A stretch of DNA of 64,000 nt from Alphaproteobacteria bacterium (GCA_022826665.1 JAJDUK010000105.1:1-64000), one strand, 5' to 3'; counted from the first letter of the stretch, positions 17,033 to 35,026 are shown. Notes: generated by a model not told the origin, from the letters alone. Program-made: numbers and translations.

Positions 17033-18618
17033 GCCTCTGCCCCGTGCTCGACATCCCGGCCAGCTCTCTCGTGGGTGCCCGCCATCAGCAAGCCGATCCG
17101 TTCCGGGCTGAGCTCTCCCGCCGGGTAGGCTTCCGACAGCTCGCCGCGCGAGATCACCGCGATGCGATCGGCGATCTCGAAGATCTCGTCGAGGTCCTGG
17201 CTGATCATCAGAACCGCCGAGCCGCTCCGCGCCATGTCCACCAGGGACTGGCGGATGAACGCCGCCGCGCCCGCGTCGACTCCCCAGGTTGGCTGATGCA
17301 CCACCAGGATGCGAGGCCTGCGGGTCATCTCGCGGCCGACGACGAATTTCTGCAGGTTGCCGCCGGAGAGCGCGCTCGCTTCCGGATCAGCCAGGTTCTT
17401 GCGCACGTCATAGTGCTCGGCGACCCTGGCCATCACGTCTTTCGCCGCGCCGCGGTTGATCAGGCCGTGCCGCACGACATCGTTACCAACGGCATGGTGG
17501 GTGAGAACGAGGTTCTCCGAGAGTGGCAGGTCCGCAATGGCGGCGTGGCCGACGCGCTCTTCCGGCACGAAGGCGGCATCGCGCCGGCGCCTTTGCGTGA
17601 TGGTCTCGCGGCCGCAGGGCGCGCCCGCCAGCTTCACCGCATCCGCAGATTTGCTTGTTCGTTCGCCCGAGATGGCGTCGAAGAGCTCCGACTGGCCGTT
17701 GCCCGCGACCCCCGCGATCGCGACGATCTCGCCGGATCGAACCGCGAGATCGATGCTCTTCAGCGCGACGCCGAAGGGGTCATCGGTCGGCATGGAGAGG
17801 CCGGCGAGCTCGAGCAGGGGCGCGCCGGTTGCCGCGCCGCTCCCCGACTGAAGCGCTGCGACGTCGGTGCCGATCATGTGCCTGGCGAGGGAGGCGGCGG
17901 ATTCCTGCTGTGGATCGACCCGCGCCACCAGACGCCCCAGGCGCAGGATCGTCGCGTCGTGGCAGAGGCGCTTCACCTCCTCCAGGCGATGGGAGATGTA
18001 GAGCACCGCGCAGCCTTCGCCAGCCAGGCGCTCCAGGGTGACGAAGAGCTGATCCGCCTCCTGAGGAGTCAGGACTGCGGTGGGCTCGTCCAGGATCAGC
18101 AAGCGCGGCTCCTGCAACAGGCAGCGCACGACCTCGATGCGCTGGCGCTCGCCCACCGAAAGATCAGCCACGAGCGCGCCGGGCCGCAGCGGCAGGCCGT
18201 AGTCGGCGGAGACCGTCTCGATCCGCCCGGCCAGCGCCTTCAGGTCCCTCTCCCCCTTGAGCGCAAGCGCGATGTTCTGCGTGACGGTGAGCGCATCGAA
18301 CAGCGAGAAGTGCTGAAACACCATGCCGATGCCCAGCTCCCGCGCTGCCGCTGGATTCGAGATCGTGACCGGAGCGGCCCCCCAGAAAAGTGTTCCCGAC
18401 GTGGGCTGCAGGGCCCCGTAAATGATCTTCACCAGGGTGGACTTGCCGGCGCCGTTCTCGCCCAGCAGTGCGTGGATTTCGCCGGGCTTCAGGCTCAGGT
18501 CGATATCGTCGTTGGCCCGCAGATCGCCGAAGAGCTTGACGATGTTGCGGGCTTCCAGAATGTACGCGCCCGCAGCCGCCCCGTTACCGTTATCCGACCC
18601 CATCGCGCCGACGCTCAT
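17029..18618 (-). CDS. Nucleoside-type ABC importer ATPase with two ABC domains
   Basis: A 529-residue fused ATPase of the BMP/ribose importer class. Domain 1 is intact: Walker A GENGAGKST at 53-61, signature LSVGERQR near 160, Walker B LLILDEPTA near 183. Domain 2 is degenerate: GVAGNGQSE replaces Walker A (GQ instead of GK), and Walker B reads ILVVHQPTW, with no catalytic Glu, although LSGGNLQK is kept. One active and one degenerate site is usual for this family. The ATG at 18618 is chosen; a second ATG at 18603 is possible. It lies 26 bases after the xdhC stop, so the importer and the oxidase genes form one operon. Confidence 0.88.
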   Translation of the reverse strand: MSVGAMGSDNGNGAAAGAYILEARNIVKLFGDLRANDDIDLSLKPGEIHALLGENGAGKSTLVKIIYGALQPTSGTLFWGAAPVTISNPAAARELGIGMVFQHFSLFDALTVTQNIALALKGERDLKALAGRIETVSADYGLPLRPGALVADLSVGERQRIEVVRCLLQEPRLLILDEPTAVLTPQEADQLFVTLERLAGEGCAVLYISHRLEEVKRLCHDATILRLGRLVARVDPQQESAASLARHMIGTDVAALQSGSGAATGAPLLELAGLSMPTDDPFGVALKSIDLAVRSGEIVAIAGVAGNGQSELFDAISGERTSKSADAVKLAGAPCGRETITQRRRRDAAFVPEERVGHAAIADLPLSENLVLTHHAVGNDVVRHGLINRGAAKDVMARVAEHYDVRKNLADPEASALSGGNLQKFVVGREMTRRPRILVVHQPTWGVDAGAAAFIRQSLVDMARSGSAVLMISQDLDEIFEIADRIAVISRGELSEAYPAGELSPERIGLLMAGTHERAGRDVEHGAEA

Positions 18619-18644
18619 CCGTCCCGGACCTGCGGCGCGGGCCC

Positions 18645-19634
18645 CTAGGACGAGGCCTCCGCGCTGTGCGCAGCGAGCGCCATCGCATCCCTGCGGCGCA
18701 GCAGATCCGCGACCACCGATGCGGCGATGACCGCCGGCTGTTTCGACGTAACGCCGTCGATGCCGATCGGACAGACCAACCGCTCGATATCGTCGTCCGC
18801 CAGGCCCGCCTGTCGCATGCGGCTGATAAAGCGGCCCTTCTTCGACGCCGAGCCGATCAGGCCGACATAGCCGAACCGCCTTGCCCTGAGCGCGGCGAGG
18901 ACCACGTCGAAGTCGAGCGCATGGCTGTGGGACATCACCAGGACGAAAGCACCGTCGGGCACTCCGTCCAGCTCGGCCGCCGGTTCCGCCGCCACGACGA
19001 CCCGCACGTCGCCCGGTACGATGGTAGGAAATTCGTTCTTCCGAGGATCTATCCACACCACGCTGAAGTCGAGCGGCGCGAGCGCGATGATCAGGGCGCG
19101 GCCGACATGACCGGCGCCGATGAGCGCCAGAACCTGCTTACGTGTCCCGAAGCGCTCTAGCAGACGTCCGTCCGCCGCAAGCAGGCTGTCTTCGCCGCCC
19201 GGCAGATCGCGCTCCAGAATGGTCCGCTCTACGCACTGCTCGGTGATGCGGCCCTCGGTGGTGAAAAGTCCGGCCTTTTCGGCTTCGGCGAGCGCCTGCA
19301 CCTCGGCGGCCCGTCCGGGCGTGAACACTTCACAGAGGATGCGCACCGAGCCGCCGCAACACTGGCCGAGATCGGGGCCGAGCGCCGTGCGGGCTACGTC
19401 CACCGGCGGAGCCTCCCCGCCCGTGCAGCCCTTCGCCAAGGCCGCGCGGGCGCGTTCGATCGCCTGCCATTCCAGCGTCCCGCCGCCGATCGTGCCGGCA
19501 AACGAGCCGTTCTCCAGCACAACCATGCGCGCGCCGGGTTCGCGAGGTGCCGAGCCCTTGGCTTCGACGATGCTGACCAGGGCGCAATTCTGTTCATCGC
19601 GGAGCGCGCGGCCGATGGTCGCCCAGGTCTTCAT
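18645..19634 (-). CDS. xdhC: Xanthine dehydrogenase accessory protein (Moco sulfuration/insertion)
   Basis: A 329-residue XdhC/CoxI-family protein. In Rhodobacter capsulatus, XdhC binds molybdenum cofactor, promotes its sulfuration and delivers it to XdhB. Visible family features are APREPGARM near 30, TIGGGTLEW near 48, GQCCGG near 95, and a C-terminal Rossmann segment ALIGAGHVGRAL near 170 followed by IGSASKKGRF near 260. The order xdhA-xdhB-xdhC matches R. capsulatus; the gap from xdhB is nine bases. Confidence 0.93.
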   Translation of the reverse strand: MKTWATIGRALRDEQNCALVSIVEAKGSAPREPGARMVVLENGSFAGTIGGGTLEWQAIERARAALAKGCTGGEAPPVDVARTALGPDLGQCCGGSVRILCEVFTPGRAAEVQALAEAEKAGLFTTEGRITEQCVERTILERDLPGGEDSLLAADGRLLERFGTRKQVLALIGAGHVGRALIIALAPLDFSVVWIDPRKNEFPTIVPGDVRVVVAAEPAAELDGVPDGAFVLVMSHSHALDFDVVLAALRARRFGYVGLIGSASKKGRFISRMRQAGLADDDIERLVCPIGIDGVTSKQPAVIAASVVADLLRRRDAMALAAHSAEASS

Positions 19635-19643
19635 CGCTTCGCC

Positions 19644-21977
19644 TCAGGCGTCCTGCATGGAGCGGATCGCGCGGGCAATCGTTTCCGGCGTCGCCGGCGC
19701 ATCGAGCGCGGGCACCCGCCCCGGATTGAGGCTAGCGATGGCGTTCGAGATCGCCGAGAACACCGAGATCGCCAGCATCAGGGGCGGCTCGCCCACCGCT
19801 TTCGAGCGGTAGATGGTCGGCTCCCTGTTGCCCTTGGATTTCCACAGTGCGACCCTGAAGTCCTCCGGCACATCGCTCGCGACCGGTATCTTGTAGGTGG
19901 AGGGCGCGTGGGTCGTGAGCCGGCCCTTCGCATCGAACACCAGCTCTTCGGTGGTGAGCCAGCCCATGCCCTGCGCGAAGCCGCCTTCGATCTGGCCGAT
20001 GTCGATCGCGGGATTGAGCGAATTGCCGACATCGTGGAGCAGGTCCACGCGGTCCACCCGCATCTCTCCGGTCAGCGTATCGATCGTCACCTCCGAGCAG
20101 GCGGCGCCGTAGGCGAAATAGAGGAATGGCCGCCCGCTCGCCGAGGCACGGTCCCAAGTGATCTTCGGCGTCGCGAAGTAACCGGTCGAAGACAGCGAGA
20201 CCCGTTCCAGGAAGCAGGTCTTCGCCAGCTCGGCGAAGGGGATGTCCTGCCCGCCGACCGTGACCGTGCTGTCGGCGAAGCGGACCTCCGCCTTGGGCAC
20301 CTGGTAGAGCCGGCCAGCCAGAGCGGCCATGCGATCCTTGATCGTGGCGGCTGCCCGCTTTGCCGCCATCCCGTTCAGATCGGAGCCGGACGACGCGGCG
20401 GTGGGCGTCGTGTTGGGCACCATGTCGGTCTTCGTCGCGGTGATCTTCACGTGCTCGAAGCCGATGCCGAATTCCTCCGCCACGACCTGCGCGACCTTGG
20501 TGTGGAGCCCCTGCCCCATCTCGGTGCCGCCGTGGTTCACCAGCACCGAGCCGTCGGTATAGACGTGCACGAGCGCGCCCGCCTGGTTGAGGTGCTTCAG
20601 CGTGAAGGCGATCCCGAACTTGACCGGCGTGAGCGACATCCCCTTCTTGAGAAAGCGGTTGCTCCCGTTGAAGGCCGCGATGCCCCTGCGCCGCTCCCGG
20701 TAGTCGCTGGTCGTCTCCAGCTCGCGCACCAGCCGCGGCAGGATGTTGTCGCCCACCTTCATGCCGTAGGGCGTAATGTCCCGCCCGCGGCCGTAGAGAT
20801 TGCGCTTGCGCACGTCCAGCGGGTCGAGGCCGAGCCGGCAGGCGATGTCGTCCATCATCCGCTCGGCGAGCATCATGCCCTGCGGCCCGCCGAACCCCCT
20901 GAACGCCGTGTTCGAGACCGTGTCGGTCTTGACCCGCCGCGAGAGGATCCGCGCGCTCGGATAGAAGTAGGCGTTGTCGGCGTGGAACATGGCCCGGTCG
21001 CAGACGGCCATGGAGAGATCGGCCGAGTAGCCGCAGCGGGCGTTGAGCGCGCCGTCGACCGCCACAAGTCTGCCGGTGTCGTCGCAGCCGTAGCTGTAAT
21101 CGACCCTGAAGTCGTGGCGCTTGCCGGTCATGATCATGTCGTCGTCGCGGTCGAGGCGGAGCTTGGCGGCCGAGCCGGTCACGCTGGCTGCGAGCGCGGC
21201 GAGGCAGGCCCATTGTGCCGCCTGGCTCTCCTTGCCGCCGAAGGCGCCGCCCATGCGCCGGCATTCGCACACCACGTCCGAGTCCGGCTTGCCCAGCATG
21301 GCCGCCACGAGGTGTTGGATTTCCGAAGGATGCTGCGTCGACGAAAGGACATGCATCGCGCCGCCCTCGCCGGGCAGCGCCAGGGCGACTTGCCCCTCGA
21401 GATAGAAGTGCTCCTGACCGCCGACGTGGAGTGAGCCCGACCCCGTATGTGGGGCCTGCTTCATGTCCGCGCCCGGCTCGCCGCGCAGGAACTGGTAGTC
21501 GGGAACCACCGTTTCGCCGGAGGCGAGACCTGCCTCGACCGAGACGCGCGGCTCCTCCTCGTCGACCGTGATGCGGGCCAGGCGGCTGGCGCGGCGGGCC
21601 TCGTCCCGGCTCAGCGCCACCACCGCGAAGACCACCTGGCCGTGAAACGCGATGAATCCGTCGGCGAGGATCGGGTCGTCGCCGAAGACCGGGCTGCAAT
21701 CGTTCTTTCCGGGGATGTCGGCGGCGGTGAGCACCGCCGCGACGCCCGGCGCGGCCCGGACCGCATCGAGGTCGAGCGCGGTGATCCGGCCACGCGCGGC
21801 ATGATTGGCATATCCGGGCGCGACGTGCACCAGCGCCGCCGGCTCGGGAACGTCGTCAATGAAGCGCGCCGTGCCCTGGACGTGCCCGCGCGCGCTGTCG
21901 TGGGCGAGCGCTCGCCCGACCGCGCCGTTGCCGTCGCCGGGCGCGGTCCGCTCCGCTTGAAGAACCTCAGGCGGCAC
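19644..21977 (-). CDS. xdhB: Xanthine dehydrogenase, molybdenum-binding subunit
   Basis: A 777-residue subunit that holds molybdopterin and oxidises hypoxanthine and xanthine to urate. Key residues can be lined up with bovine xanthine oxidase: E250 in GGAFGGKE (E802), R328 in CDRAMFH (R880), F362 in FRGFGGPQ (F914) and the catalytic base E730 in KAVGEPP (E1261). So all substrate-binding positions I can check are kept. The start is GTG at 21977, with GGAGG nine bases before it; the xdhA stop lies inside its first codons, an 11-base overlap. The open frame continues upstream to 22238, but those residues are arginine-rich shadow of xdhA. Confidence 0.95.
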   Translation of the reverse strand: MPPEVLQAERTAPGDGNGAVGRALAHDSARGHVQGTARFIDDVPEPAALVHVAPGYANHAARGRITALDLDAVRAAPGVAAVLTAADIPGKNDCSPVFGDDPILADGFIAFHGQVVFAVVALSRDEARRASRLARITVDEEEPRVSVEAGLASGETVVPDYQFLRGEPGADMKQAPHTGSGSLHVGGQEHFYLEGQVALALPGEGGAMHVLSSTQHPSEIQHLVAAMLGKPDSDVVCECRRMGGAFGGKESQAAQWACLAALAASVTGSAAKLRLDRDDDMIMTGKRHDFRVDYSYGCDDTGRLVAVDGALNARCGYSADLSMAVCDRAMFHADNAYFYPSARILSRRVKTDTVSNTAFRGFGGPQGMMLAERMMDDIACRLGLDPLDVRKRNLYGRGRDITPYGMKVGDNILPRLVRELETTSDYRERRRGIAAFNGSNRFLKKGMSLTPVKFGIAFTLKHLNQAGALVHVYTDGSVLVNHGGTEMGQGLHTKVAQVVAEEFGIGFEHVKITATKTDMVPNTTPTAASSGSDLNGMAAKRAAATIKDRMAALAGRLYQVPKAEVRFADSTVTVGGQDIPFAELAKTCFLERVSLSSTGYFATPKITWDRASASGRPFLYFAYGAACSEVTIDTLTGEMRVDRVDLLHDVGNSLNPAIDIGQIEGGFAQGMGWLTTEELVFDAKGRLTTHAPSTYKIPVASDVPEDFRVALWKSKGNREPTIYRSKAVGEPPLMLAISVFSAISNAIASLNPGRVPALDAPATPETIARAIRSMQDA

Positions 21978-23454
21978 GCTCGGTGTCCTCCGGCCGCAGT
22001 CCCACCAGTCGGGTCTCGGTGCTCGCCGTCCCGCCCGCCTCGTGCAGGGCCTTGCGGAGCAGCGCCTGCGCCGTCTCCAGCCGATACCGGGCGCCGGCTC
22101 GCATGTCGTCAATGGGCTGGAAGTCCATTGCCAGCGCCTTGCAGATGGCTTCCCAGCCTTGCGGGTCGTCAAGCGGCAGGTCTCTGAGGGCCGATTCCGT
22201 GGCGGCGGCCCGCTTCGGCGTGGCCGCCATGCCACCAAAGGCGACGCGCGCGTGCGTGATGCGGCCCGTCTCCACGGTGAACCTGAACGCGCCCAGGACG
22301 GCGGAAATGTCCTGATCGAAGCGTTTGGAGATCTTGTAGCAGCGGAAGACGTGGTCGGATTCGAGGCGCGGCACGTCGATCCCGGTCACGAACTCGCCGG
22401 CCGCCCGGTCCTGCTTGCCGTAGTCGATGAAGAAGTCTTCGAGCGGCATCGACCGCGTCGCCTGGCCCCGGCGCAGGTGCAGCGTCGTACCGAGCGCAAT
22501 CAAGGCTGGCATTGAATCGCCGATCGGGGAGCCGTTGGCGATATTGCCTCCAATCGTCCCCACTGCGCGGACCTGCTTGCCGCCGAAACGACGCAACAGC
22601 TCGACGAGATCGGGATCGATCGCCGCCATGGCGGGTTCCGCCTGCGCATGAGTGACGCCCGCTCCAAAATAGAAGCCCTGCTCGGTCTCGCGCATCTCCG
22701 CCAAGCCGGCCACCCTTCCCAGAAGAATGATCTTCGGCAAGGCCCGCAGCTGCTTGGTGATCCAAAGGCCGACATCAGTGGCGCCCGCGACCAGCGTGGC
22801 GTCCGGATGCCGCACGTAGAGGCGGGCCAGGGCATCGACCGTGGCCGGTGCAGCCAGGAAACCCGCCTCCTCATCGCCGATGAAGATGTCCTCGCCATCG
22901 TTGAGCGCCGCCAGGCGTTCGGTGGTGTTGGCCCGGTGCGCCGCGAATGCGTCGCGCGGCGTTCCGTCGCACGCCTCCAGCGCCGCATCGACGATCGGCC
23001 GGTAGCCGGTGCAGCGGCACAGATTGCCGGCGAGCGTGTCGTTCACCGCCTGCCGGTCCGCGCGCCCGCCAGCGTGATAAAGCGTGAAGAGACTCATCAC
23101 GATGCCCGGCGTGCAGAAGCCGCATTGGCTGCCGTGATGCCTGAGCACCGCGTCCTGCACCGGGTGCAGTGCGCCGTTCGCACCGGCCAAATCCTCCACC
23201 GCGACCAGCTCCTTGCCGTCGATCATCCCTAGAAGGCAGATGCAGGCGTTGACCGGCGCGTACTCCAGCCCGCCGTCCTGCAGGGTGCCGAGCGCCACGG
23301 TGCAGGCGCCGCAGTCGCCCTCAGCGCAGCCCTCCTTGGTGCCGTAGGCATGGCGGCGCAGTCGCAGATAGTCGAGCAGGGTCTCATTCGCGCCCACATC
23401 GGTCAGCGAGACGACCTCGCCGCGGTGGAGAAACCGGACCGACGAGCGCGTCAT
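21967..23454 (-). CDS. xdhA: Xanthine dehydrogenase, 2Fe-2S and FAD subunit
   Basis: A 495-residue subunit. The first 2Fe-2S cluster uses C43, C48 and C51 (GCAEGDCGAC) plus C71 or C73; the second uses CGFCTPG near 112 and NLCRCTG near 144. The C-terminal half is the FAD domain (FAD_binding_5 with TIGGNIANGSP near 300) and the CO dehydrogenase flavoprotein C-terminal domain. It passes electrons from the Mo site to NAD. It begins three bases after the uraH stop and overlaps xdhB, so uraH-xdhABC is tightly coupled. Confidence 0.95.
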   Translation of the reverse strand: MTRSSVRFLHRGEVVSLTDVGANETLLDYLRLRRHAYGTKEGCAEGDCGACTVALGTLQDGGLEYAPVNACICLLGMIDGKELVAVEDLAGANGALHPVQDAVLRHHGSQCGFCTPGIVMSLFTLYHAGGRADRQAVNDTLAGNLCRCTGYRPIVDAALEACDGTPRDAFAAHRANTTERLAALNDGEDIFIGDEEAGFLAAPATVDALARLYVRHPDATLVAGATDVGLWITKQLRALPKIILLGRVAGLAEMRETEQGFYFGAGVTHAQAEPAMAAIDPDLVELLRRFGGKQVRAVGTIGGNIANGSPIGDSMPALIALGTTLHLRRGQATRSMPLEDFFIDYGKQDRAAGEFVTGIDVPRLESDHVFRCYKISKRFDQDISAVLGAFRFTVETGRITHARVAFGGMAATPKRAAATESALRDLPLDDPQGWEAICKALAMDFQPIDDMRAGARYRLETAQALLRKALHEAGGTASTETRLVGLRPEDTERAA

Positions 23455-26140: not shown

Positions 26141-27253
26141 TCAAGCGGTTGGCAGGTCGAAGTTGTAGAAGCGGGCGCAGTTGTTGAAGGTGATGTCCCG
26201 CCGCGTCTCCTCATCCAGATGGCCGAAGACGCGCTCGATCACCGCCATCGTATTCGGATAGGTGCAGCGCGCGTGGGGAAAGTCCGAGCCCCACATGATG
26301 GTCTTCGGGTCGATCACGTCCAGCACCTTGTCGAGGTAGGGATCGTCGATCAGCCCGTGATAGATCTGGCCCATGTACTCCTCGATGGGCCGCTTGATCT
26401 TGGGGATGTCCAGCGCCGGGCCGAAGTCGTCCTGAATCTGCTTGGCGCGGAACAGCCAGTAGGGTAGCCAGCAGACCTCGTACTCCGAGAGCACAAGCTT
26501 GAGGTTCTCGAAGCGGTCGAGGACGCCGCCAAAAATGAACTCGTTGGCGAGCACGGGCCCGGCCTCCGCCAGGACGCCGATGCAGGTGCGCGGCACGTTG
26601 ATGCGCTCAGGCCCGTGCAGGACGAAGGGGTCGACCTCGTTTCCGGTGATGATGTGGAGCGTCACCGGCTGGTCCAGCTCCTGCGCCAGCGCCCAGAAGG
26701 GATCGTAGTGCTTGTCCTGGAACGGCGGCCACTCGGGGCGGGAGTCGCAGTTGATGATCACGCTCTTCAGCCCGCGCTTCGCGGTGCGCTCCAGCTCCTT
26801 GCAGGCCCAGTCGATGTCCGCCATGTGGATCATCGAGGTGCCGTAGAGCTGCTTCGGCGCGTGGCTGCAGTATTCAGCGAGCCAGTCGTTGAACACGCTG
26901 CACAGGTCCTCGACCAGCCGGTCGTCCCGCGCGCGCATCGCGTAGAGCATCCAGGTCGAGTTCACGATCTCGCCGACGACACCGTCCTCTTTCATGCACT
27001 CCAGCCGGATCGCGGGGTCAGTGCCTGAGCCCACGAGCTTTCGCTGCAGCTCCTCGTCGCCCTCGACGATCTCGTCCACGCGCACGTATTCGAACCCGGT
27101 GAAGAAGTGGTCGCCCTTGATGCCGGCATGTTCGGACACCATGCGCGGCACGGCATCGCCGTAGCGCGCGCCGAGCGGCTTCGACCACAGGTCCGCCGGC
27201 TCGATTACGTGGGAATCGCCGGAGATAACGGGCAGTTGTCCGTTTGCAGACAT
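26141..27253 (-). CDS. Amidohydrolase family 2 (ACMSD-like) metal-dependent hydrolase/decarboxylase
   Basis: A 370-residue TIM-barrel enzyme of the amidohydrolase_2 family. ISGDSHVIEP at 10-19 carries the first metal ligands (D13, H15), a His in VTLHIITGNE lies near 204, and MWGSDFPHARCTYP near 326-339 carries the last metal Asp. The family includes decarboxylases and C-C or C-N hydrolases acting on ring-cleavage products and hydroxybenzoates. It lies downstream of a CUT2-type importer (31 bases after the permease gene), and upstream on the same strand are a NicX-like ring-cleaving dioxygenase and a Rieske oxygenase. A role in breaking down an aromatic or heteroaromatic compound is inferred. 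Confidence 0.8.
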   Translation of the reverse strand: MSANGQLPVISGDSHVIEPADLWSKPLGARYGDAVPRMVSEHAGIKGDHFFTGFEYVRVDEIVEGDEELQRKLVGSGTDPAIRLECMKEDGVVGEIVNSTWMLYAMRARDDRLVEDLCSVFNDWLAEYCSHAPKQLYGTSMIHMADIDWACKELERTAKRGLKSVIINCDSRPEWPPFQDKHYDPFWALAQELDQPVTLHIITGNEVDPFVLHGPERINVPRTCIGVLAEAGPVLANEFIFGGVLDRFENLKLVLSEYEVCWLPYWLFRAKQIQDDFGPALDIPKIKRPIEEYMGQIYHGLIDDPYLDKVLDVIDPKTIMWGSDFPHARCTYPNTMAVIERVFGHLDEETRRDITFNNCARFYNFDLPTA

Positions 27254-27283
27254 CGCTAACTTCTGAGCCCTGGTTTTGGAGAA

Positions 27284-28309
27284 CTAGTCTCTGAGCATGA
27301 GCAGCAGCTTCTGCCGGTAGTTGTCGGCGATCACCGCGAGGATGAGCAGGATGCCGATCACCACCAGCTGCATGTAGGAGCTGATGCGCAGCAGGTTCAT
27401 GCCGTTCTGCACGAGGATGATGAAGATGGCGCCGAGCACCACGTTGGGCAGCCGCCCGGTGCCGCCGAAGAGGCTGACGCCGCCGATCACGCAGGCCGCG
27501 ATCGAGAGCAGCGGGTACTCCTTGCCGATGTTGCCCTCGCCGCTTTCCAACCGCGCGGTCAGCATGATCGCGCCGATGGTCGTGATCGCGGCGGTCACGA
27601 CGTAGGCCATGAACAGGTAGAAGCGCGTGCTGATGCCCGAAAGCTGCGAGGCCTTGAGGTTGCCGCCGAGCGCGTAGAGATAGCGCCCCATCCGGGTCCA
27701 GTTGAGGAACACGTACATCAGGATGATGAACCCGATGGTGATCCAGATCGGGATCGGGACACCGATTCCCCTGCCGTAGCCGAGGACGTTCGCGAAGTTG
27801 TCCGGCATGCCGTAGATCGGCGTGCCGCCGGTGATCATGAGCGCGATGCCGAAGACGATGGACGACATCGCCAGCGTCATCATGAAGGGCGGCACGCGGA
27901 AGACCGCCACGCCGATGCCGTTGACCACGCCGATGCCGGTGCCGGCGCCAAAGCCGGCGAGGCAGCCGATGAGGATCGCGGCCGTGGTGGCCTCGCCGCC
28001 GTCCCACACGCCCACCATGGTCATGGATGTGATGACCGAGACCAGGGCGAACATGACACCCACCGAGAGATCGAGGCCTGCGGTCAACAGCACGACCATC
28101 TGGCCCATGGAGACCATGATCAGGTAAGTGGACTGGCGCGCGACCTGCATGAGATTGCGGCCGCTGAAGAAATTGTCCGTGGTAATCGCGAAGACAATGA
28201 TTGCGATGATGAGGAACCAGGGGAGCACGCCCGCGCGGACGAAGATGAGCGTCGCAAAATACTCCGCCCTCTCCAACGCCGTCGGACGCTGCTGGGCTAC
28301 ATCGGCCAT
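27284..28309 (-). CDS. ABC importer permease, CUT2 (RbsC) type
   Basis: A 341-residue inner-membrane permease of BPD_transp_2 type with eight to ten hydrophobic segments. GLDLSVGVMFALVSV near 77-91 is the typical RbsC/XylH motif, and ACVIGGVSLFGGTG near 272-285 is the conserved C-terminal loop. GGAGGGAGAG precedes the ATG. It lies 16 bases after the ATPase gene and works with the TorT-like binding protein encoded upstream. Confidence 0.88.
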   Translation of the reverse strand: MADVAQQRPTALERAEYFATLIFVRAGVLPWFLIIAIIVFAITTDNFFSGRNLMQVARQSTYLIMVSMGQMVVLLTAGLDLSVGVMFALVSVITSMTMVGVWDGGEATTAAILIGCLAGFGAGTGIGVVNGIGVAVFRVPPFMMTLAMSSIVFGIALMITGGTPIYGMPDNFANVLGYGRGIGVPIPIWITIGFIILMYVFLNWTRMGRYLYALGGNLKASQLSGISTRFYLFMAYVVTAAITTIGAIMLTARLESGEGNIGKEYPLLSIAACVIGGVSLFGGTGRLPNVVLGAIFIILVQNGMNLLRISSYMQLVVIGILLILAVIADNYRQKLLLMLRD

Positions 28310-28325
28310 AAACTCTCCCTCCGGA

Positions 28326-29900
28326 TCACGCCTCGTCCTCCTTCTCGAAGAAGTGGTGCAGCACCGTTTCCTCCGAGATTTCGGATTGATCGAGCTCGGC
28401 GCGCAGTTCGCCGCGGTACATCACGTAGGTGCGGTGTACGAGGTGCAGGATCTCCGGCAGGTCCGAGGAGATCAGGAGCACGCCGGCACCTGCCTCGCAG
28501 AGATCGCGGATGAACTCGTAGATCGCCACCCGCGCGCCGACGTCGACGCCTACCGTCGGCTCGTCAAAGACGAAGAGCTTCACGTCCCGCACCAGCGACT
28601 TGCCCACCAGCACCTTCTGCTGGTTGCCGCCGGAGAAGTGCTCCAGGTCGCGCTCGATGTTGAGCGGCATCAGGTCGAGCTTCTGCGCGATGTCGCGCAC
28701 GACCTTGCGCTCGTTGTTGCGGCGCAGGAACAGGCGGTTCGAGAACTTTCCCAGCCCGAGCGAGGGCAGTGACACGTTCTCCCGCACGTTCTGCATCATC
28801 ACCAGGCCCTCTTGGCGGCGGTCCGAGGGCAGGTAGTAAAGGCCGCGGTCGAGCATCCGGCGGGTCCCAAGCTTGTTCACGTGCTTGGCCCGGTCGTAGA
28901 CGACATCGCCGTCGAAGGTGATCTTGCCCGCCATGATCCGCTCGAGGCCGAAGCAGGCGCGGCCCAGGTCGGACTTGCCGGAGCCCACCAGGCCGGCGAG
29001 GCCGACCACTTCGCCGCGCCGCACGTTGATCGAGACGTCGTTCACGAAGTGCTTCGCGGTGACGAGGTTCTCGACCTCCAGCAGGGTCTCGGCCGGGTTG
29101 CGTTTGATATCCGGGAAGATCTGTTCGATGACGCGGCCGGTCATCAGCTCGACGAGCTTCTGATCGGTCGCCTCCTCGACGGGGATCGTGTCGATATGCA
29201 CCCCGTCGCGCAGCACGGTTATGCGGTCGCCGATCCGCTTGATCTCGTTCATCCGGTGGGTGATGTAGATGATGCCGATGCCTTCGGCCTTGATCTGCTC
29301 GATCAGGCTGAACAGCCGGTCGGTCTCGCGTTCAGTGAGCGAGGCGGTCGGCTCGTCGAAGATCATGATGTTCGGCCGGGTGCGGAAGGCCTTGGCGATC
29401 TCCACCATCTGCTGCTCGGCGCGGGAGAGATACATCACCTCGTCGCGCGGTCTGAGCGGGAAGCCCAGGCGGTCCAGCGTCTCGCGCGCCTGGCGGGCGA
29501 GCGCCCTCTTGTTGAGGATCGGACCGCGTGTCAGCTCGTCGCCGAGAAACAGGTTCTCCTCGACCGTGAGGTGCGGCACCAGCGAGAATTCCTGGAAGAC
29601 GGCGCTCACGCCGAGCTGACGCGCGTGGTGCACCGAGTGAATATTGATCTGCTCGCCGCGCAGGTGAATGGTCCCGCCGGATGGCCTGTGGACACCGGCG
29701 ACGATCTGGATCAGCGTCGACTTGCCCGCGCCATTCTCGCCGAACAGTACGTGCACCTCGCCAGCCTGCACGTCGAAATTAACGCGATCTAGCGCGAGCG
29801 TGCCGGGAAATTGCTTAGAGAGATTTTCTAATCTGAGAAGGGTGTCCCCGGAGCTCTGAGGCTCCGGGGACTCGTCAAACACTGCTGATGGTTCTGCCAC
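28326..29900 (-). CDS. ABC importer ATPase with two ABC domains, CUT2 (RbsA/XylG) type
   Basis: A 524-residue fused ATPase. Domain 1 has GENGAGKST near 55-63, an unusual signature LSRAEQQM near 158, and Walker B IMIFDEPTA near 181. Domain 2 keeps a P-loop-like GLVGSGKSD near 297, has FSGGNQQK near 413 and LFVFDEPTVGVD near 434. So both P-loops look intact, unlike the purine importer ATPase. The start is GTG at 29900, with GGAGG about ten bases upstream. A 7-bp inverted repeat (29885-29919) encloses that ribosome site and the GTG. Confidence 0.87.
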   Translation of the reverse strand: MAEPSAVFDESPEPQSSGDTLLRLENLSKQFPGTLALDRVNFDVQAGEVHVLFGENGAGKSTLIQIVAGVHRPSGGTIHLRGEQINIHSVHHARQLGVSAVFQEFSLVPHLTVEENLFLGDELTRGPILNKRALARQARETLDRLGFPLRPRDEVMYLSRAEQQMVEIAKAFRTRPNIMIFDEPTASLTERETDRLFSLIEQIKAEGIGIIYITHRMNEIKRIGDRITVLRDGVHIDTIPVEEATDQKLVELMTGRVIEQIFPDIKRNPAETLLEVENLVTAKHFVNDVSINVRRGEVVGLAGLVGSGKSDLGRACFGLERIMAGKITFDGDVVYDRAKHVNKLGTRRMLDRGLYYLPSDRRQEGLVMMQNVRENVSLPSLGLGKFSNRLFLRRNNERKVVRDIAQKLDLMPLNIERDLEHFSGGNQQKVLVGKSLVRDVKLFVFDEPTVGVDVGARVAIYEFIRDLCEAGAGVLLISSDLPEILHLVHRTYVMYRGELRAELDQSEISEETVLHHFFEKEDEA

Positions 29901-29919
29901 TTTCAGGGGCCTCCATCAG
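29885..29919 (-). promoter_or_regulatory. Inverted repeat enclosing the ribosome site and start of the ATPase gene
   Basis: CTGATGG (29885-29891) and CCATCAG (29913-29919) are perfect inverted repeats separated by 21 bases. On the transcript the loop contains the Shine-Dalgarno GGAGG partly in the upstream arm and the GTG start in the loop. If it forms, it would lower translation of the ATPase relative to the binding protein. It is only 7 bp, so the claim is tentative. Confidence 0.3.
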
Positions 29920-29947
29920 TCCCTTATCTGTGGCGATCCGATCACGC

Positions 29948-31126
29948 CTAGTCGGTGCTGAACACGGGTGTCCAGCCCTTGGGCGCGAGCGTCGTGGTGG
30001 TGTCGAAGTCCGCGTGATTCTCCGGCGTCACCATGATCGCCAGCGGCTGCACATGCTCGATCATCCGGCCGGTGTCGTTGAACTCGGGCCGGCCGCCGGT
30101 GGCCGAGGGCTTGCCCTCGAGAATGCGGACCGCCTGATCGATGGAGATCCGCGCCTGGATGATCATCTGATCGGTCGGCGCCATGGCGACACTGCCGCGG
30201 CCGACGAATTGATGCATGCCGGGCGTGTAGTAGTAGGAGACGAGCTTGACCTCGTCCTGCAGACCCAGGTCACGGAGCGCAGCCATGCCGCCCTCGACCG
30301 CCGGCGCCACGCCAACGATGTAGTCGAGATCGACATCGCTACCCGAGGTCTGCGCCTGGATCACGTTCTCGACGAGGCTGAGCTGGGCCTCCTTGCTGGT
30401 CTGGGCCCACTTGGTCGAGATGACCTCGGCGTCGGAGCCGACGACCGCATCGTGACAGCCCTGGTTGCCGGCCACCGACCAGCTGGCTCCGGGCGGGCCC
30501 GGGAACCAGGCGATCTTGACGTTGCCGCTGCCTTCGGGGTGCTGGTCGGCGACCCACTTGCAGGCGATCCGGCCCATGCTGTAGTAGCTCTCCAGCGACT
30601 TGGCATCGACCTCGGTGTTGATCCCGTTGATCAGGTCGACAACCGGGATGCCCCTGGCACGCAGTTCGTTGACCTGCTTGATGTTGCCCTCTGCCGAGAT
30701 CGCCGAAAGCACGAGAATCTCGGCGCCGTTGGCGATGCAGTCCTCGACCTGCGAGAGCTGCTTCTCCAGCTTGTCGTAGCCGCCGGCCTCGATCAGGGAG
30801 ATCTTCTGGCCGAGGCGCTTGCCTTCCTCGATGATCCCGTAGGCCGCGCCGACCCAGTAGGAGTCCACGAGGTGGGGGAAGGACACGCAGATGTGGTGCT
30901 TCGCGTCCACCTCATCCGGCATCAGCGGTACGTAGTCGACGATCTCGAGATTCTGGTTGGCGGGATCGGTCCAGCATGCCGGATCGCCGTCCGTGCATGA
31001 CGGGTTGTAAATCTCGACTTGCGCCGGCCACCAGACGCCGTCGTCCTCTGCCTGCACGTCGGACGCGGCAAAGCCCGTCATGGCCATGCCCGCCGCGACG
31101 GCGGCGCCTAGAGTCAGTTTCCACAT
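29948..31126 (-). CDS. TorT-like periplasmic sugar-type binding protein
   Basis: A 392-residue type I periplasmic binding protein (Peripla_BP_4). The signal peptide ends at VQA, residue 26. The mature N-terminus has WWPAQVEIYNP near 32, which resembles TorT, the periplasmic partner of TMAO sensing, and the rest follows the ribose-binding fold (DYVPLMPDEVDAKHH, then SAISAEGNIKQ). Since a complete RbsA/RbsC-type ATPase and permease follow, it is an importer component here rather than a sensor subunit. GGGAGAG precedes the ATG. The leader contains overlapping stem-loops and a candidate promoter. Confidence 0.82.
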   Translation of the reverse strand: MWKLTLGAAVAAGMAMTGFAASDVQAEDDGVWWPAQVEIYNPSCTDGDPACWTDPANQNLEIVDYVPLMPDEVDAKHHICVSFPHLVDSYWVGAAYGIIEEGKRLGQKISLIEAGGYDKLEKQLSQVEDCIANGAEILVLSAISAEGNIKQVNELRARGIPVVDLINGINTEVDAKSLESYYSMGRIACKWVADQHPEGSGNVKIAWFPGPPGASWSVAGNQGCHDAVVGSDAEVISTKWAQTSKEAQLSLVENVIQAQTSGSDVDLDYIVGVAPAVEGGMAALRDLGLQDEVKLVSYYYTPGMHQFVGRGSVAMAPTDQMIIQARISIDQAVRILEGKPSATGGRPEFNDTGRMIEHVQPLAIMVTPENHADFDTTTTLAPKGWTPVFSTD

Positions 31127-31164
31127 GGTCGTCTCTCCCTCTGGTCATGGACCTGTATCGGCGC

Positions 31165-31213
31165 GGGCGCCGGTACTGTCACCGGCGCCCACACAATCAC
31201 GTCTCCGTGTGGG
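31165..31213 (-). promoter_or_regulatory. Two overlapping, mutually exclusive stem-loops in the leader of the TorT-like gene
   Basis: Stem 1: CCCACAC (31188-31194) with GTGTGGG (31207-31213). Stem 2: GGGCGCCGGT (31165-31174) with ACCGGCGCCC (31181-31190), a perfect 10-bp stem with a 6-base loop. They share 31188-31190, so full forms exclude one another. On the transcript stem 1 comes first, right after the predicted start site, then stem 2, then the start codon 39 bases on. No T-run follows, so this is not a plain terminator; 5' message protection, a translational switch or termination of the upstream unit are possible. Confidence 0.45.
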
Positions 31214-31217
31214 GGGC

Positions 31218-31245
31218 ATATTACGGTCACGCGACGAAAGCGCAA
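31218..31245 (-). promoter_or_regulatory. Candidate promoter for the TorT-like importer operon
   Basis: On the minus strand TTGCGC (31245-31240) and TAATAT (31223-31218) are 16 bases apart, placing a start site near 31211. It lies 25 to 52 bases beyond the NicX-like gene stop, so the importer may be transcribed apart from the dioxygenase genes. Confidence 0.35.
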
Positions 31246-31269
31246 ATGCCCTTTGCCCCCTTTGGCTGG

Positions 31270-32310
31270 TCAGTGGGCGGGTGCCCGCATGTCCCCCGGC
31301 ACGACTGCGCCGTTCTCCACGATCAGCTCGTCGTCGAGCCAAAGCGAGCAGCCCTGCATCGGCAAGTCGAGGTGGCAGGGGGTGTCGTTCTCGCCGCCGA
31401 ACTCGGTGTCGGGGCCGAGCGAGAACAGCACGTTGCCGTAGTGCGCGCGGCCGTCCATGCCGATGCCCGGCAGGTCGGGCCGCCAGATGCAGTGATGGTT
31501 TAGCCCCCAGCCGATGTGCGAGACCGCGTAGGCGCGCGGGTCGTTGTAGCCCTCGATGAAGCCGCGCAGGTGGTCGGCGCGGGCGCCGCCCGAGATCTCC
31601 GTCACCATGCCGTCGCTGATGTCGAAGGCGATGCGCTCGCCTGTAAACTCGCGCAGCGGGAAGACGATGTCGTCCGCGTCCATCACCACCCGCCCGTTCA
31701 CGCCTTGCTCGGCAGCGAGAGTGGCGAGGAAGCCCCCCGGCCAGTGGTCCCAGCGCCCGGGCTCGGTGGTAAAGCCGTATTCGGTCAGGATGAACTTGTC
31801 GCCCAGCGTGTAAGTGACGTCGGTGCCAGCGTCGTTGGTGAAGCGCAGGCTCTGCGCCGCCTTTAGTCTCTGCTCTCCGGCTTCGACGCGCGTGCGCATC
31901 TCGGCGGTCGGGAACAGACGCTCCAGAATCTCCTCGGGCTCGACGACGAGCAGGATTCGGCTGCCCGCCTCCTGCATCGCGATCTGCTCGTGGGAGAAGA
32001 GCAGGAGCATGTGGTCGACCACCATGTCGGCGTCCTTGCAGGTCTGCATCGCCTCCGGGTGCTTGCTCAGCGCGTTTTGCCCGATGTTGGCGATCCTGAC
32101 CGCCGGGTCTTCCGCACCGTCCGAGGGGAGGTGCACGTCGGCCACGTCCGCGCCGAGGTCGCGTGCGGCTGCGAGCGACGCCTGCCTGTAATTCCCGAGC
32201 TGATCGCCTTCCGAGAGGACGGCCACAGTCTCGCCCGGTCCCACCTCGCAAAGCTCGAGATTCTTGCGGAACAACTCGGTCAGTCGTGCCTGATGCTGCT
32301 GTGTGCCCAT
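31270..32310 (-). CDS. NicX-like 2,5-dihydroxypyridine 5,6-dioxygenase family protein
   Basis: A 346-residue protein matching the NicX family as I know it. NicX cleaves 2,5-dihydroxypyridine to N-formylmaleamate in nicotinate catabolism and resembles M29 aminopeptidases in fold. The iron ligands of Pseudomonas NicX (His265, His318, Asp320) have counterparts H265 in SHIGWG and H313/D315 in PCHLD. TEYGFTTEPGRWDHWPGGF near 176-194 and GRAHYGNVLFSLGP near 287-300 are also NicX-like. An AGGAG seven bases before the ATG overlaps the end of the Rieske gene, 11 bases upstream, so the two are coupled. The real ring substrate is unknown: no other nic genes are in the window. Confidence 0.78.
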   Translation of the reverse strand: MGTQQHQARLTELFRKNLELCEVGPGETVAVLSEGDQLGNYRQASLAAARDLGADVADVHLPSDGAEDPAVRIANIGQNALSKHPEAMQTCKDADMVVDHMLLLFSHEQIAMQEAGSRILLVVEPEEILERLFPTAEMRTRVEAGEQRLKAAQSLRFTNDAGTDVTYTLGDKFILTEYGFTTEPGRWDHWPGGFLATLAAEQGVNGRVVMDADDIVFPLREFTGERIAFDISDGMVTEISGGARADHLRGFIEGYNDPRAYAVSHIGWGLNHHCIWRPDLPGIGMDGRAHYGNVLFSLGPDTEFGGENDTPCHLDLPMQGCSLWLDDELIVENGAVVPGDMRAPAH

Positions 32311-32321
32311 GATTCCGGCTC

Positions 32322-33590
32322 CTATTCCGCCGCGCTCACCAGCGCGGTGTAGCCGCCGTCGCGCGGCTCCCGGTTGCGCGAGGCGCTCTCGCGCAGCGCG
32401 TCCTCGCCGTCCTGGCGGCGCCTGTCGCGGGCCTCGTCGTCCTCGCTCAAGAGCTTGTCGAGATAGTAGTTGAGAAGGTGGTGGATGGCGCGCTCCAGCC
32501 TCGCGGTCGGCCCCGGCCGGAAGGCGCGCGATCCGACCCCGTTCTGCAGCGATTCCAGCATGGCCCGGTCCTCGTTCGCGACCAGCCGGATGAAGTCGGC
32601 ATAGATCTGGTTCTTCTCCTCGAAGGCGGGCGCGTCGAAATACTCGTCCGGCAGCTGCGTGTAGATGATGATCCGGGTGGTGCCGTGGTCGATCGGATGC
32701 GCCACCCAGGGCTGGATCATGTCATGGCGGCCGAAGATGTTCATGGTCGGCCTAATCCAGGTGGTGCAGGCGAACTTGTCGGTCACCTTGCCCTTGAGCC
32801 AGGGCATGGTGTCGAAGAGCGTCGCTCCCCTCGGCGCCATTGTGTAGCTCTCGTAGGCGGCGTTGTAGCCGTTCTTCTGCAGGTTGAAGCGGAAGTCGTT
32901 GACCGGGAAGTGGCCGCCGAAGGAATCCTTGTGGATCACGCCCACGTGGTAGATGTCCATCAGGTTCTCGGGGATGAACTTCCAATTGCAGGGCACGTCG
33001 AAGACGTATTTGTCCGACGTGCGCGTGTTCTCCGGTTGGAGGAAGGCGGCGAACTCCCTGACTCCGTCCTCGTCGAGGCAATCCGCGAGGCTGCGACAAT
33101 CCGGGTCGAAATTGACGAAGATGTAGCCGCCCCAGGTGTCGAGATTGACCCGCGGCAGCGCGCAGTTCGAGAAGTCGAAGTTCTCCACCTCCTTGGTGTG
33201 CGGCGCGCCCAGCAGCTTGCCCTTAAGGTCGTAGACCCAGGCGTGATAGGGGCAGCGGAAGCTCTTCAGGTTGCCTTCGCCGGTCGTGACCTCGACGCCC
33301 CGGTGCTGGCACACGTTGCTGAAGGCGTTGAGCCGGCCCGCACCGTCGCGGCAGATCAGGAGCGGCTCGCCCGCGATGCGGATGGCCCGATAGTCGCCCT
33401 CGTTCTCGAACTCCTCCACCCGGCCGACGCAGAGCCACTCCTTCATGAAGATGGCGTCGACCTCGTAGTCGAAGATCTCCGGCGCCGTGTAGAGGAAGCC
33501 CGGCAGATGCCGCGCTTGGCCGAGGTCCCGGCGCGTCTTCCTGATCTCTTCGAGAATGCTCTCGTCGAGCGTTATGCCCCGATGCTGCAT
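32322..33590 (-). CDS. Rieske-type ring-hydroxylating or demethylating oxygenase, alpha subunit
   Basis: A 422-residue oxygenase. The Rieske 2Fe-2S site uses C94-x-H96 and C113-x2-H116 (CQHRG and CPYHAW). The mononuclear iron site has NLMDIYHVGVIH, giving D212 as the inter-subunit electron bridge and H215 and H220 as ligands. The length and lack of a beta-subunit gene suggest a homomeric enzyme. No ferredoxin or reductase gene is adjacent, so a general one must serve. It is directly upstream of the NicX-like gene, and the pair could hydroxylate then open an aromatic or pyridine-type ring. AAGGGG lies nine bases before the ATG. Confidence 0.88.
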   Translation of the reverse strand: MQHRGITLDESILEEIRKTRRDLGQARHLPGFLYTAPEIFDYEVDAIFMKEWLCVGRVEEFENEGDYRAIRIAGEPLLICRDGAGRLNAFSNVCQHRGVEVTTGEGNLKSFRCPYHAWVYDLKGKLLGAPHTKEVENFDFSNCALPRVNLDTWGGYIFVNFDPDCRSLADCLDEDGVREFAAFLQPENTRTSDKYVFDVPCNWKFIPENLMDIYHVGVIHKDSFGGHFPVNDFRFNLQKNGYNAAYESYTMAPRGATLFDTMPWLKGKVTDKFACTTWIRPTMNIFGRHDMIQPWVAHPIDHGTTRIIIYTQLPDEYFDAPAFEEKNQIYADFIRLVANEDRAMLESLQNGVGSRAFRPGPTARLERAIHHLLNYYLDKLLSEDDEARDRRRQDGEDALRESASRNREPRDGGYTALVSAAE

Positions 33591-33635
33591 CGCTCAACGC
33601 CCCCCTTGCCATTCAAAGCCGGCAGTATAACGGCT

Positions 33636-33658
33636 GGTCCTGCGTGAGTCCGCAGGCC
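33636..33658 (-). terminator. Small stem-loop after the LarA-like gene
   Basis: GGtCCTGCG (33636-33644) pairs with CGCAGGCC (33651-33658) with one bulged T and a 6-base loop, starting three bases after the LarA-like stop. No T-run follows. A weak terminator or processing site in the 71-base gap before the Rieske gene. Confidence 0.25.
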
Positions 33659-33661
33659 CCC

Positions 33662-34978
33662 TCACACCGGGCAGCGGGTGAGCAGGCGGCCCTTATCGTC
33701 GAAGCGGAGCGCCTCGGCCTCGCCCAGCACCTCGCCCGCGCCATTCAACTCTTCGGCCAGCGGCGGTGAGACCAGAATCGTGTCGAGGTGCAGGGTCGAG
33801 CGGATGATGCAGAGCCGCGCGTCCGCCCCGTCGAGGTGCCAGGACGTGCCGACGGCAGTCTGCAGCGCCGCCTTGTCGGTGGCGAGCACGGCGGGAATCC
33901 GCACCCGCTCGGTGAAGGTCGCGGTGCAGGCGTTCATGTACATGGCGTAGAGGTCGAGGTTGTCGGCGACCGCCTTGGTCGTGTAGTCGGCGTTGCCGAC
34001 GCCGAGGCCGTTGCCGTGGGTCTCCGGCGTCAGCCCCAGCACCACCAGCTTGGTGATCACCGGCGCCGGCGGGTTGGGCCGCCCGCGGATGTCGAAGCGC
34101 GCGGTGACCGCCGGGTCCATGCCGGTGCCGGAGATGTTCTTGCCGAGCCTCTCTACCGCGAGCACGTCGATCTGCTCGAAGGGCAGCTTCGGGACGCAGC
34201 CCTTGGCGGTCTTCAGCAGGCGGGCGTCGGTCTCGTAGAAGTCTTCCGGCTCGGCGCCCTCGATGATCGCGGCCTCGCGCGCGGCGTTCTCGACGATGGC
34301 GATGCCGTAGGCGATCGGCGCCTCGCGGATGGCGATGCTGGCCCATTCGGGCAGCACCTCCATGTAGCCGCGCACGCCGAGGCGGTGCACGAAGCGCGCG
34401 CCTTCCGCCTTGCCGAGCCCGATGGCGGTCATCTTGGTGAGCCCGCTTTCCACCTCCCGGTCGAAGGAGGTGTGGGACTTTACCCGGCCCACCACCAGCA
34501 CCGCATCGGCCTCGAAGGCGCGGCGGTCGAAATGGACTGCAACGCCGGCGCTCGTCTGCCCCAGCCGCACCACCTCCATGCTGGCCTCGATGGGGCAGCC
34601 CATGGCCTCTTCGGTGAAGCCGAGCTCGGCCAGCAGCGTCACTTGACCCGAGGCGACGGCACCGGCGTGGCTGCCCATTGCAGGCACGATGAAGGGCGAA
34701 AGTCCGCGCTCCTTGAGCCAAGCGACCGCCGCCTTGACCACCGTCGGTTTGCTCTTGATTCCCCGGCTGCCGCAGGTGATCGCGACGCGGGAGCCCGCCG
34801 CGAGCGCGTTGAGCCGGCGCGATTCATCGAGCGCCGCACGCGTGGCGGCGGCGACATCGGAGAGCGCCGGCACGTCGGGATGGCGCAGCGCCACCGGCAT
34901 CACCGGCGGCAGCCGCTCGTTCTCGAACTGCGGCAGCGCGATGGCGGGGAAGGTGGGGCTCGGCCTGTTCAGAGTCAT
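33662..34978 (-). CDS. LarA-like (lactate racemase N-terminal domain) protein
   Basis: A 438-residue protein with the LarA N-terminal (DUF2088-type) fold. FIVPAMGSHAGAVASGQ near residue 93, GRVKSHTSFDREVESGLTK near 155-173 and LGKAEGARFVH near 179-189 carry conserved His and Lys residues like those that hold and use the nickel-pincer cofactor in LarA. Larger LarA relatives racemise or epimerise 2-hydroxyacids. No larB, larC or larE cofactor genes lie in this window, so whether it holds the cofactor is open. The ATG at 34978 is taken over a GTG at 34993. It is one of a row of minus-strand catabolic genes. Confidence 0.65.
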   Translation of the reverse strand: MTLNRPSPTFPAIALPQFENERLPPVMPVALRHPDVPALSDVAAATRAALDESRRLNALAAGSRVAITCGSRGIKSKPTVVKAAVAWLKERGLSPFIVPAMGSHAGAVASGQVTLLAELGFTEEAMGCPIEASMEVVRLGQTSAGVAVHFDRRAFEADAVLVVGRVKSHTSFDREVESGLTKMTAIGLGKAEGARFVHRLGVRGYMEVLPEWASIAIREAPIAYGIAIVENAAREAAIIEGAEPEDFYETDARLLKTAKGCVPKLPFEQIDVLAVERLGKNISGTGMDPAVTARFDIRGRPNPPAPVITKLVVLGLTPETHGNGLGVGNADYTTKAVADNLDLYAMYMNACTATFTERVRIPAVLATDKAALQTAVGTSWHLDGADARLCIIRSTLHLDTILVSPPLAEELNGAGEVLGEAEALRFDDKGRLLTRCPV

Positions 34979-35026
34979 GGTGGCACGATACACCAGACCG
35001 GCACCGGCCAGAATGTCCGTCTCGTT

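Follow-up and report, generated by a model that had tools for sequence, protein, structure and literature searches.

A 64,000-nucleotide stretch of an alphaproteobacterial genome (Alphaproteobacteria bacterium, GCA_022826665.1 JAJDUK010000105.1:1-64000; the window) carries a gene pair encoding a Rieske oxygenase and a homolog of NicX, the 2,5-dihydroxypyridine (2,5-DHP) 5,6-dioxygenase. We propose, with a probability of about 0.62, that this pair is one unit whose products hydroxylate a pyridine-type ring before cleaving it, and that the importer and PF04909 genes beside it are independent of it. The ring-cleavage pair itself is well supported. The in silico basis is the homology of the proteins, their complete active sites, the tight pairing of the genes, the conserved neighborhoods and the separate promoter-like elements; the substrate, the regiochemistry of the Rieske reaction, the electron donors and the later steps are inferred. 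The window lies in a genome (G000) of 4.63 Mb in 106 contigs that is 99.2% complete. The bacterium is marine, and the names of the closest records (RHO bins) suggest that it is probably sponge-associated. Positions 26141-33590 hold six co-directional genes, all on the minus strand, where an original prediction from the window had placed them. The pair and the elements upstream of it are as follows.

32322..33590, minus strand: Rieske non-heme iron oxygenase alpha subunit, a likely ring hydroxylase feeding NicX (PF00355 and PF00848)
31270..32310, minus strand: NicX-like 2,5-DHP 5,6-dioxygenase homolog (match to 7cn3)
33624..33653, minus strand: promoter-like element of Rieske-NicX, GCGGACT-17 nt-TATACT (from aligned gaps between NPN22 and the Rieske gene)
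33662..34993, minus strand: nickel-pincer-cofactor isomerase group 22, NPN22 (NF052515, 476 bits, cut-off 400)

The NicX-like protein had no Pfam or NCBIfam matches, and a phmmer comparison aligned it with Pseudomonas putida NicX (7cn3) at 1.3e-80, 274 bits and ~42% identity. NicX has four iron ligands, one of them a serine, and its H105F variant stays active (PMC7910607). All four (His265, Ser302, His318 and Asp320 in P. putida numbering) are present in the window protein, and no full-length relative that we examined lacks them, so the earlier claim that the iron ligands are conserved stands, with their number corrected from three to four. The DHP-binding residues Glu177 and His189 are also kept, as is Leu104. 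Two positions near the pocket entrance differ, as Cys76 is replaced by Ile and His105 by Phe. We rejected the idea that Phe105 signals a new substrate because the same residue is found in NdpE, the product of a Sphingobium plasmid gene annotated as a DHP dioxygenase. An AlphaFold2 (AF2) model of the protein (mean predicted local distance difference test score, pLDDT, 95) superposed on 7cn3 with a Foldseek template modeling (TM) score of 0.93 and a root-mean-square deviation of 1.8 Å. In a tree with several long branches and a midpoint root only, P. putida NicX and NdpE both fell outside the window clade, NdpE nearer to the window protein than NicX; this placement of the characterized and annotated DHP dioxygenases is consistent with retained chemistry in the clade. 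By sequence and predicted fold, the protein is a genuine 2,5-DHP dioxygenase homolog with predicted activity on 2,5-DHP.

Two further groups of NicX-like genes appeared among the loci collected from relatives (numbered with L). Binatia-type loci encode a second paralog (L024 13148-14170, L025 13179-14225, L028 13126-14163) in which the iron ligands are intact but Glu177 and His189 have given way to Ser and Asn, and a different ring substrate is possible; it adjoins genes for a Rieske protein, a VOC protein, a luciferase-like monooxygenase and a molybdenum hydroxylase. NicX-like genes annotated as "leucyl aminopeptidase" lie in pyridine-type operons (L053 9986-11011, L054 9980-11020, L128 9989-11020), where the label is probably wrong. 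NicX-type homologs often carry this label, which calls for caution in reading annotations.

The Rieske protein keeps the Rieske ligands C94/H96/C113/H116, the bridging D212 and the iron ligands H215/H220/D341, all of which are conserved in 24 homologs. Its gene is separated from that of the NicX-like protein by 11 bp. We counted recurrence of the pair in 37 NicX loci fetched from relatives: a Rieske gene at 61-96% identity adjoins NicX in 15 of them, drawn from Alphaproteobacteria, Gammaproteobacteria and Myxococcota, and one at 40-44% does so in three more. The GCGGAC core and the TATACT of the element GCGGACT-N17-TATACT 5' of the Rieske gene are invariant in all seven same-genus loci. NPN22 precedes Rieske-NicX in the same proportion (7/7), and outside the genus it was not found next to the pair; in L002, an insertion of ~600 bp lies between NPN22 and the promoter-like element. 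Because the element is conserved in the genus and the L002 insertion splits NPN22 from it, Rieske-NicX looks like its own transcription unit. NPN22 is thus a constant upstream neighbor in the genus, and any role for it in the pathway is putative and unproven. The gap, the recurrence and the conserved element bear out the proposal that the NicX-like enzyme is coupled to a Rieske oxygenase.

The neighborhoods of the pair in relatives point to the type of ring. In three gammaproteobacterial loci (L008, L011, L012), both genes of the pair are 67-69% identical to the window genes and are preceded by genes for a molybdenum hydroxylase of three subunits and for another Rieske protein. L012 ends after NicX; in L008 and L011, genes for an alpha/beta hydrolase of the NicD type and for an Amdase-family protein lie downstream of it, the latter sharing 49-51% identity with the maleate isomerase NdpH. 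NdpH-like maleate isomerases are found beside NicX in L019 (57%) and L031 (53%) and a maleamate amidohydrolase homolog in L015 (44%), and homologs of one enzyme or the other adjoin NicX in these three loci and in L030, L036 and L038. The NicD/NicF/NicE lower pathway set is partly present in L008, L011, L015, L019, L030, L031 and L036. In L031, which is Paraburkholderia oxyphila, the NicX operon adjoins a gene for a Rieske protein of the VanA type. A Variovorax plasmid combines NicX with a FAD monooxygenase, a molybdenum hydroxylase, an isochorismatase and a hydrolase, with a 38% Rieske homolog ~6 kb away. The maleate isomerase and maleamate amidohydrolase homologs tie the window clade to an N-formylmaleamate/maleamate lower pathway, and the molybdenum hydroxylase, NicD-, NicE- or NicF-type genes in the same neighborhood in several relatives make pyridine-ring catabolism the best reading. 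On this comparative evidence, the pair likely serves the breakdown of a pyridine-type ring. In the proposed scheme, one of the many molybdenum hydroxylases of the genome would probably make 2-hydroxypyridine or a hydroxypyridine-carboxylate, the Rieske oxygenase would hydroxylate the pyridine-type ring to 2,5-DHP or a close analog, and the NicX-like Fe(II) dioxygenase would open the ring between C5 and C6 to give N-formylmaleamate or an analog.

Several observations weigh against this scheme. The nearest solved relative of the Rieske protein is the carnitine monooxygenase CntA (141 bits), which is a carnitine-type monooxygenase and not a ring hydroxylase, and a Rieske ferredoxin or reductase partner was not identified beside the pair. 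In one genus (g6), NicX occurs but this Rieske gene does not. We searched the genome of the window with NdpF, NdpG and NdpH, gammaproteobacterial NicD- and NicE-like proteins and the Variovorax NicX-linked FAD monooxygenase. Maleate isomerase (NicE) was not found (best 24-30% identity), nor was a close NicD (best 32%, 100 bits) or a NicC-type monooxygenase (best 31%, a partial match to the Variovorax query); the genome thus shows no canonical lower pathway.

The same searches returned several NicF-like isochorismatases, about 34-40% identical to NdpG. The absence of the usual nic genes, predicted from the window, therefore extends genome-wide to NicC, NicE and a close NicD but does not strictly hold for NicF-like proteins. 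With only distant matches to these queries, we rejected the idea that this genome has a full nic cluster at another site. The molybdenum hydroxylase large subunit gave 21 matches, a large set for 4.6 Mb; none exceeded 39%, and we rejected an ortholog of the NicX-linked enzyme among them. Either this genome has a lower pathway that is incomplete or draws on other enzyme families, or it processes the product in another way. An alpha/beta hydrolase and luciferase-like pair near NicX in two related genomes (G014 and G016), located on contig C60 in the genome of the window, may be a NicD substitute or else plain synteny.

The genes that follow the pair on the same strand are, as predicted, those of a TorT-like CUT2 ATP-binding cassette (ABC) importer and an amidohydrolase-fold protein.

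29948..31126, minus strand: TorT-like periplasmic binding protein of a CUT2-type ABC importer (NF008185, 283 bits, cut-off 200; PF13407; 4yhs, 277 bits)
28326..29900, minus strand: CUT2 ABC ATPase (PF00005, AraG/XylG-like)
27284..28309, minus strand: CUT2 ABC permease (PF02653)
26141..27253, minus strand: PF04909 amidohydrolase-fold protein related to the diiron monooxygenase PtmU3 (135 bits)
31161..31246, minus strand: importer unit promoter-like element (TTTGCG-17 nt-TAATAT, 31218-31246) and leader hairpin (31161-31194)

The view of this importer as dedicated to the NicX-like enzyme, by linkage or shared transcription, failed on comparison. Two genomes of the genus have no importer and PF04909 genes beside the pair; in one of them, the sister species G016, these genes are on contig C18 and NPN22-Rieske-NicX is on C23. 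In L003 and L006 the importer-PF04909 unit is absent after NicX. In other genera, orthologs of the PF04909 and importer genes are likewise linked in G009, where the NicX search gave no match, and in G011-G013, where NicX was found on other contigs. The unit has its own promoter-like element (TTTGCG-N17-TAATAT) followed, ahead of the TorT-like gene, by a strong GC-rich leader hairpin (fold z -3.9). The hairpin had no Rfam match, and the leader is recognizable upstream of the relocated importer in G016. Because it is relocated in G016, absent in L003 and L006 and found without NicX in G009, and because it has its own promoter-like element and leader, the importer-PF04909 unit is separable from the pair. 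On this genomic evidence it is a predicted second, independently controlled unit for another or unnamed compound, and we detach it from the claim about NicX. Its neighbors in other genera are an alpha/beta hydrolase, a RidA-like protein and a cyclic amidohydrolase. Plasmid TorT-like importers adjoin 5-oxoprolinase and biotin-carboxylase genes, which hints at lactams or cyclic amides.

In L124 and L125, TorT-like CUT2 importers lie beside genes for the 5-oxoprolinase PxpA and a biotin-dependent carboxyltransferase, followed in one of the two by a xanthine-dehydrogenase-type enzyme.

The PF04909 protein had been described as an ACMSD-type amidohydrolase, but its best match is PtmU3 (135 bits, against 44 bits for human ACMSD), an amidohydrolase-fold monooxygenase (PMC10811679, PMC7782822). 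Six core metal ligands (D13, H15, H200, E257, D324, H327) are kept in full-length family members. Glu257 occupies the beta-6 position, as in PtmU3, whereas LigW2, the decarboxylase reference in the alignment, has there the catalytic His of decarboxylases. Arg329 is invariant in a 10-member family alignment and replaces the acidic residue (PtmU3 Glu313, AibH2 Asp342) that is reported to mark dinuclear members, so the protein may be mononuclear. An AF2 model of moderate quality (pLDDT 72) ranked PtmU3 first by fold, which we take as supporting evidence only. Judged from its active-site residues, decarboxylation by this protein is disfavored, and oxygenation is unproven.

The separability of the importer unit and the active site of the PF04909 protein bear directly on whether all six genes could form a single pathway, with TorT-like import, Rieske hydroxylation, PicC-like decarboxylation of 3,6-dihydroxypicolinate to 2,5-DHP by the PF04909 protein, and cleavage by NicX. 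The genes are adjacent and co-directional in the window, L004, L005 and L018 (in L002 the sequence breaks off inside the gene for the binding protein), and the picolinate route joins the amidohydrolase-family decarboxylase PicC with the NicX-type PicD (PMC10142695). We nevertheless hold such a pathway to be improbable, given the separate or missing importer units described above and a PtmU3-like protein with Glu and not His at beta-6; PicC-like decarboxylation was rejected on both the active site and the linkage. The suggestion of a pathway for another pyridine or N-heteroaromatic ring thus survives for NicX and the Rieske protein and not for the importer and PF04909 genes, which neighborhood alone had wrongly tied to the NicX-like enzyme, a caution for similar predictions. 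The Rieske protein could instead be an N-demethylase or hydroxylase of a quaternary pyridinium such as homarine or trigonelline, common in marine animals, with NicX cleaving the product. CntA, a quaternary-ammonium enzyme, is the nearest solved structure, the best NCBIfam match is the glycine-betaine monooxygenase GbcA, and homarine has been reported from marine invertebrates and phytoplankton. That match reached only 136 bits of a 670-bit cut-off, the bridging residue is Asp here and Glu in CntA, and a betaine-type gene was not found among the conserved neighbors examined; we regard this substrate class as quite improbable.

It is also unlikely that the NicX-like protein has shifted to a larger fused ring, such as that of a hydroxyquinoline-like compound, or to a ring other than pyridine. 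The ~42% identity to NicX and the Ile and Phe near the pocket entrance would allow such a shift, and other family members (L024b, a Binatia-type paralog) have lost E177 and H189, but the window protein keeps both of these DHP-holding residues and its close relatives adjoin maleate isomerase and maleamate amidohydrolase homologs. An M29-type aminopeptidase in an incidental neighborhood is a far more remote prospect. Plasmid homologs carry the leucyl aminopeptidase annotation, and M29 peptidases are the next structural relatives of the model, with TM scores of 0.51-0.63. However, the profile search gave no match to PF02073 (M29) and the homologs so annotated sit in pyridine-type operons; with the complete NicX iron site, the DHP residues and a TM score of 0.93 to NicX, a peptidase is therefore unlikely. 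The original prediction had named a complete nic cluster elsewhere and activity solely as a peptidase among the outcomes that would overturn it; the former was not found with the queries above, and the latter finds no backing in profile or fold.

Hydroxylation by the Rieske protein followed by NicX-type cleavage is a variant of the known 2,5-DHP route. The nic system of P. putida KT2440 has the same NicX-type Fe(II) dioxygenase with its iron and DHP-binding residues, but uses the flavin monooxygenase NicC where the window has a Rieske protein, has His105 in place of Phe, and includes NicE and a NicD with no close counterpart in the genome of the window. The pic system (PicA-G) of Alcaligenes faecalis and Bordetella has the 2,5-DHP dioxygenase step in common; the likeness of its amidohydrolase-family neighbor is superficial, as the window PF04909 protein is without decarboxylase hallmarks and sits in a separable unit. 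The Sphingobium ndp system (NdpE-H) shares Phe105 and contains the dioxygenase closer in the tree, whereas it has an annotated monooxygenase, NdpD, in the place of the Rieske protein and a complete lower pathway in one cluster. All three routes place other hydroxylases ahead of NicX. No Rieske-NicX pathway was found in the open-access literature, most subscription papers lying outside that search. A bolder and less likely reading is an undescribed pyridine route in which NicX is fed by a Rieske oxygenase that hydroxylates the ring and may also N-demethylate a marine pyridinium (homarine, for instance), and in which the lower pathway avoids maleate isomerase. If true, the recurrent Rieske-NicX pair in several lineages, including probably sponge-associated ones, would suggest a distinct way of N-heteroaromatic breakdown.

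The window PF04909 protein shares the six core metal ligands with the dinuclear monooxygenases PtmU3 and AibH2 (AROs) but has Arg329 at the acidic dinuclear-marker position, and no small Rieske ferredoxin gene lies beside its gene. TorT-like CUT2 importers on Agrobacterium and Diaphorobacter plasmids have the same order of binding protein, ATPase and permease and adjoin 5-oxoprolinase-like genes, whereas the window importer adjoins the PtmU3-like gene. Elsewhere in the window, at 17029-23454, translations alone indicate apparent xanthine dehydrogenase genes; an XdhC-like protein and the ATPase of a nucleoside-type ABC transporter are encoded along with them.

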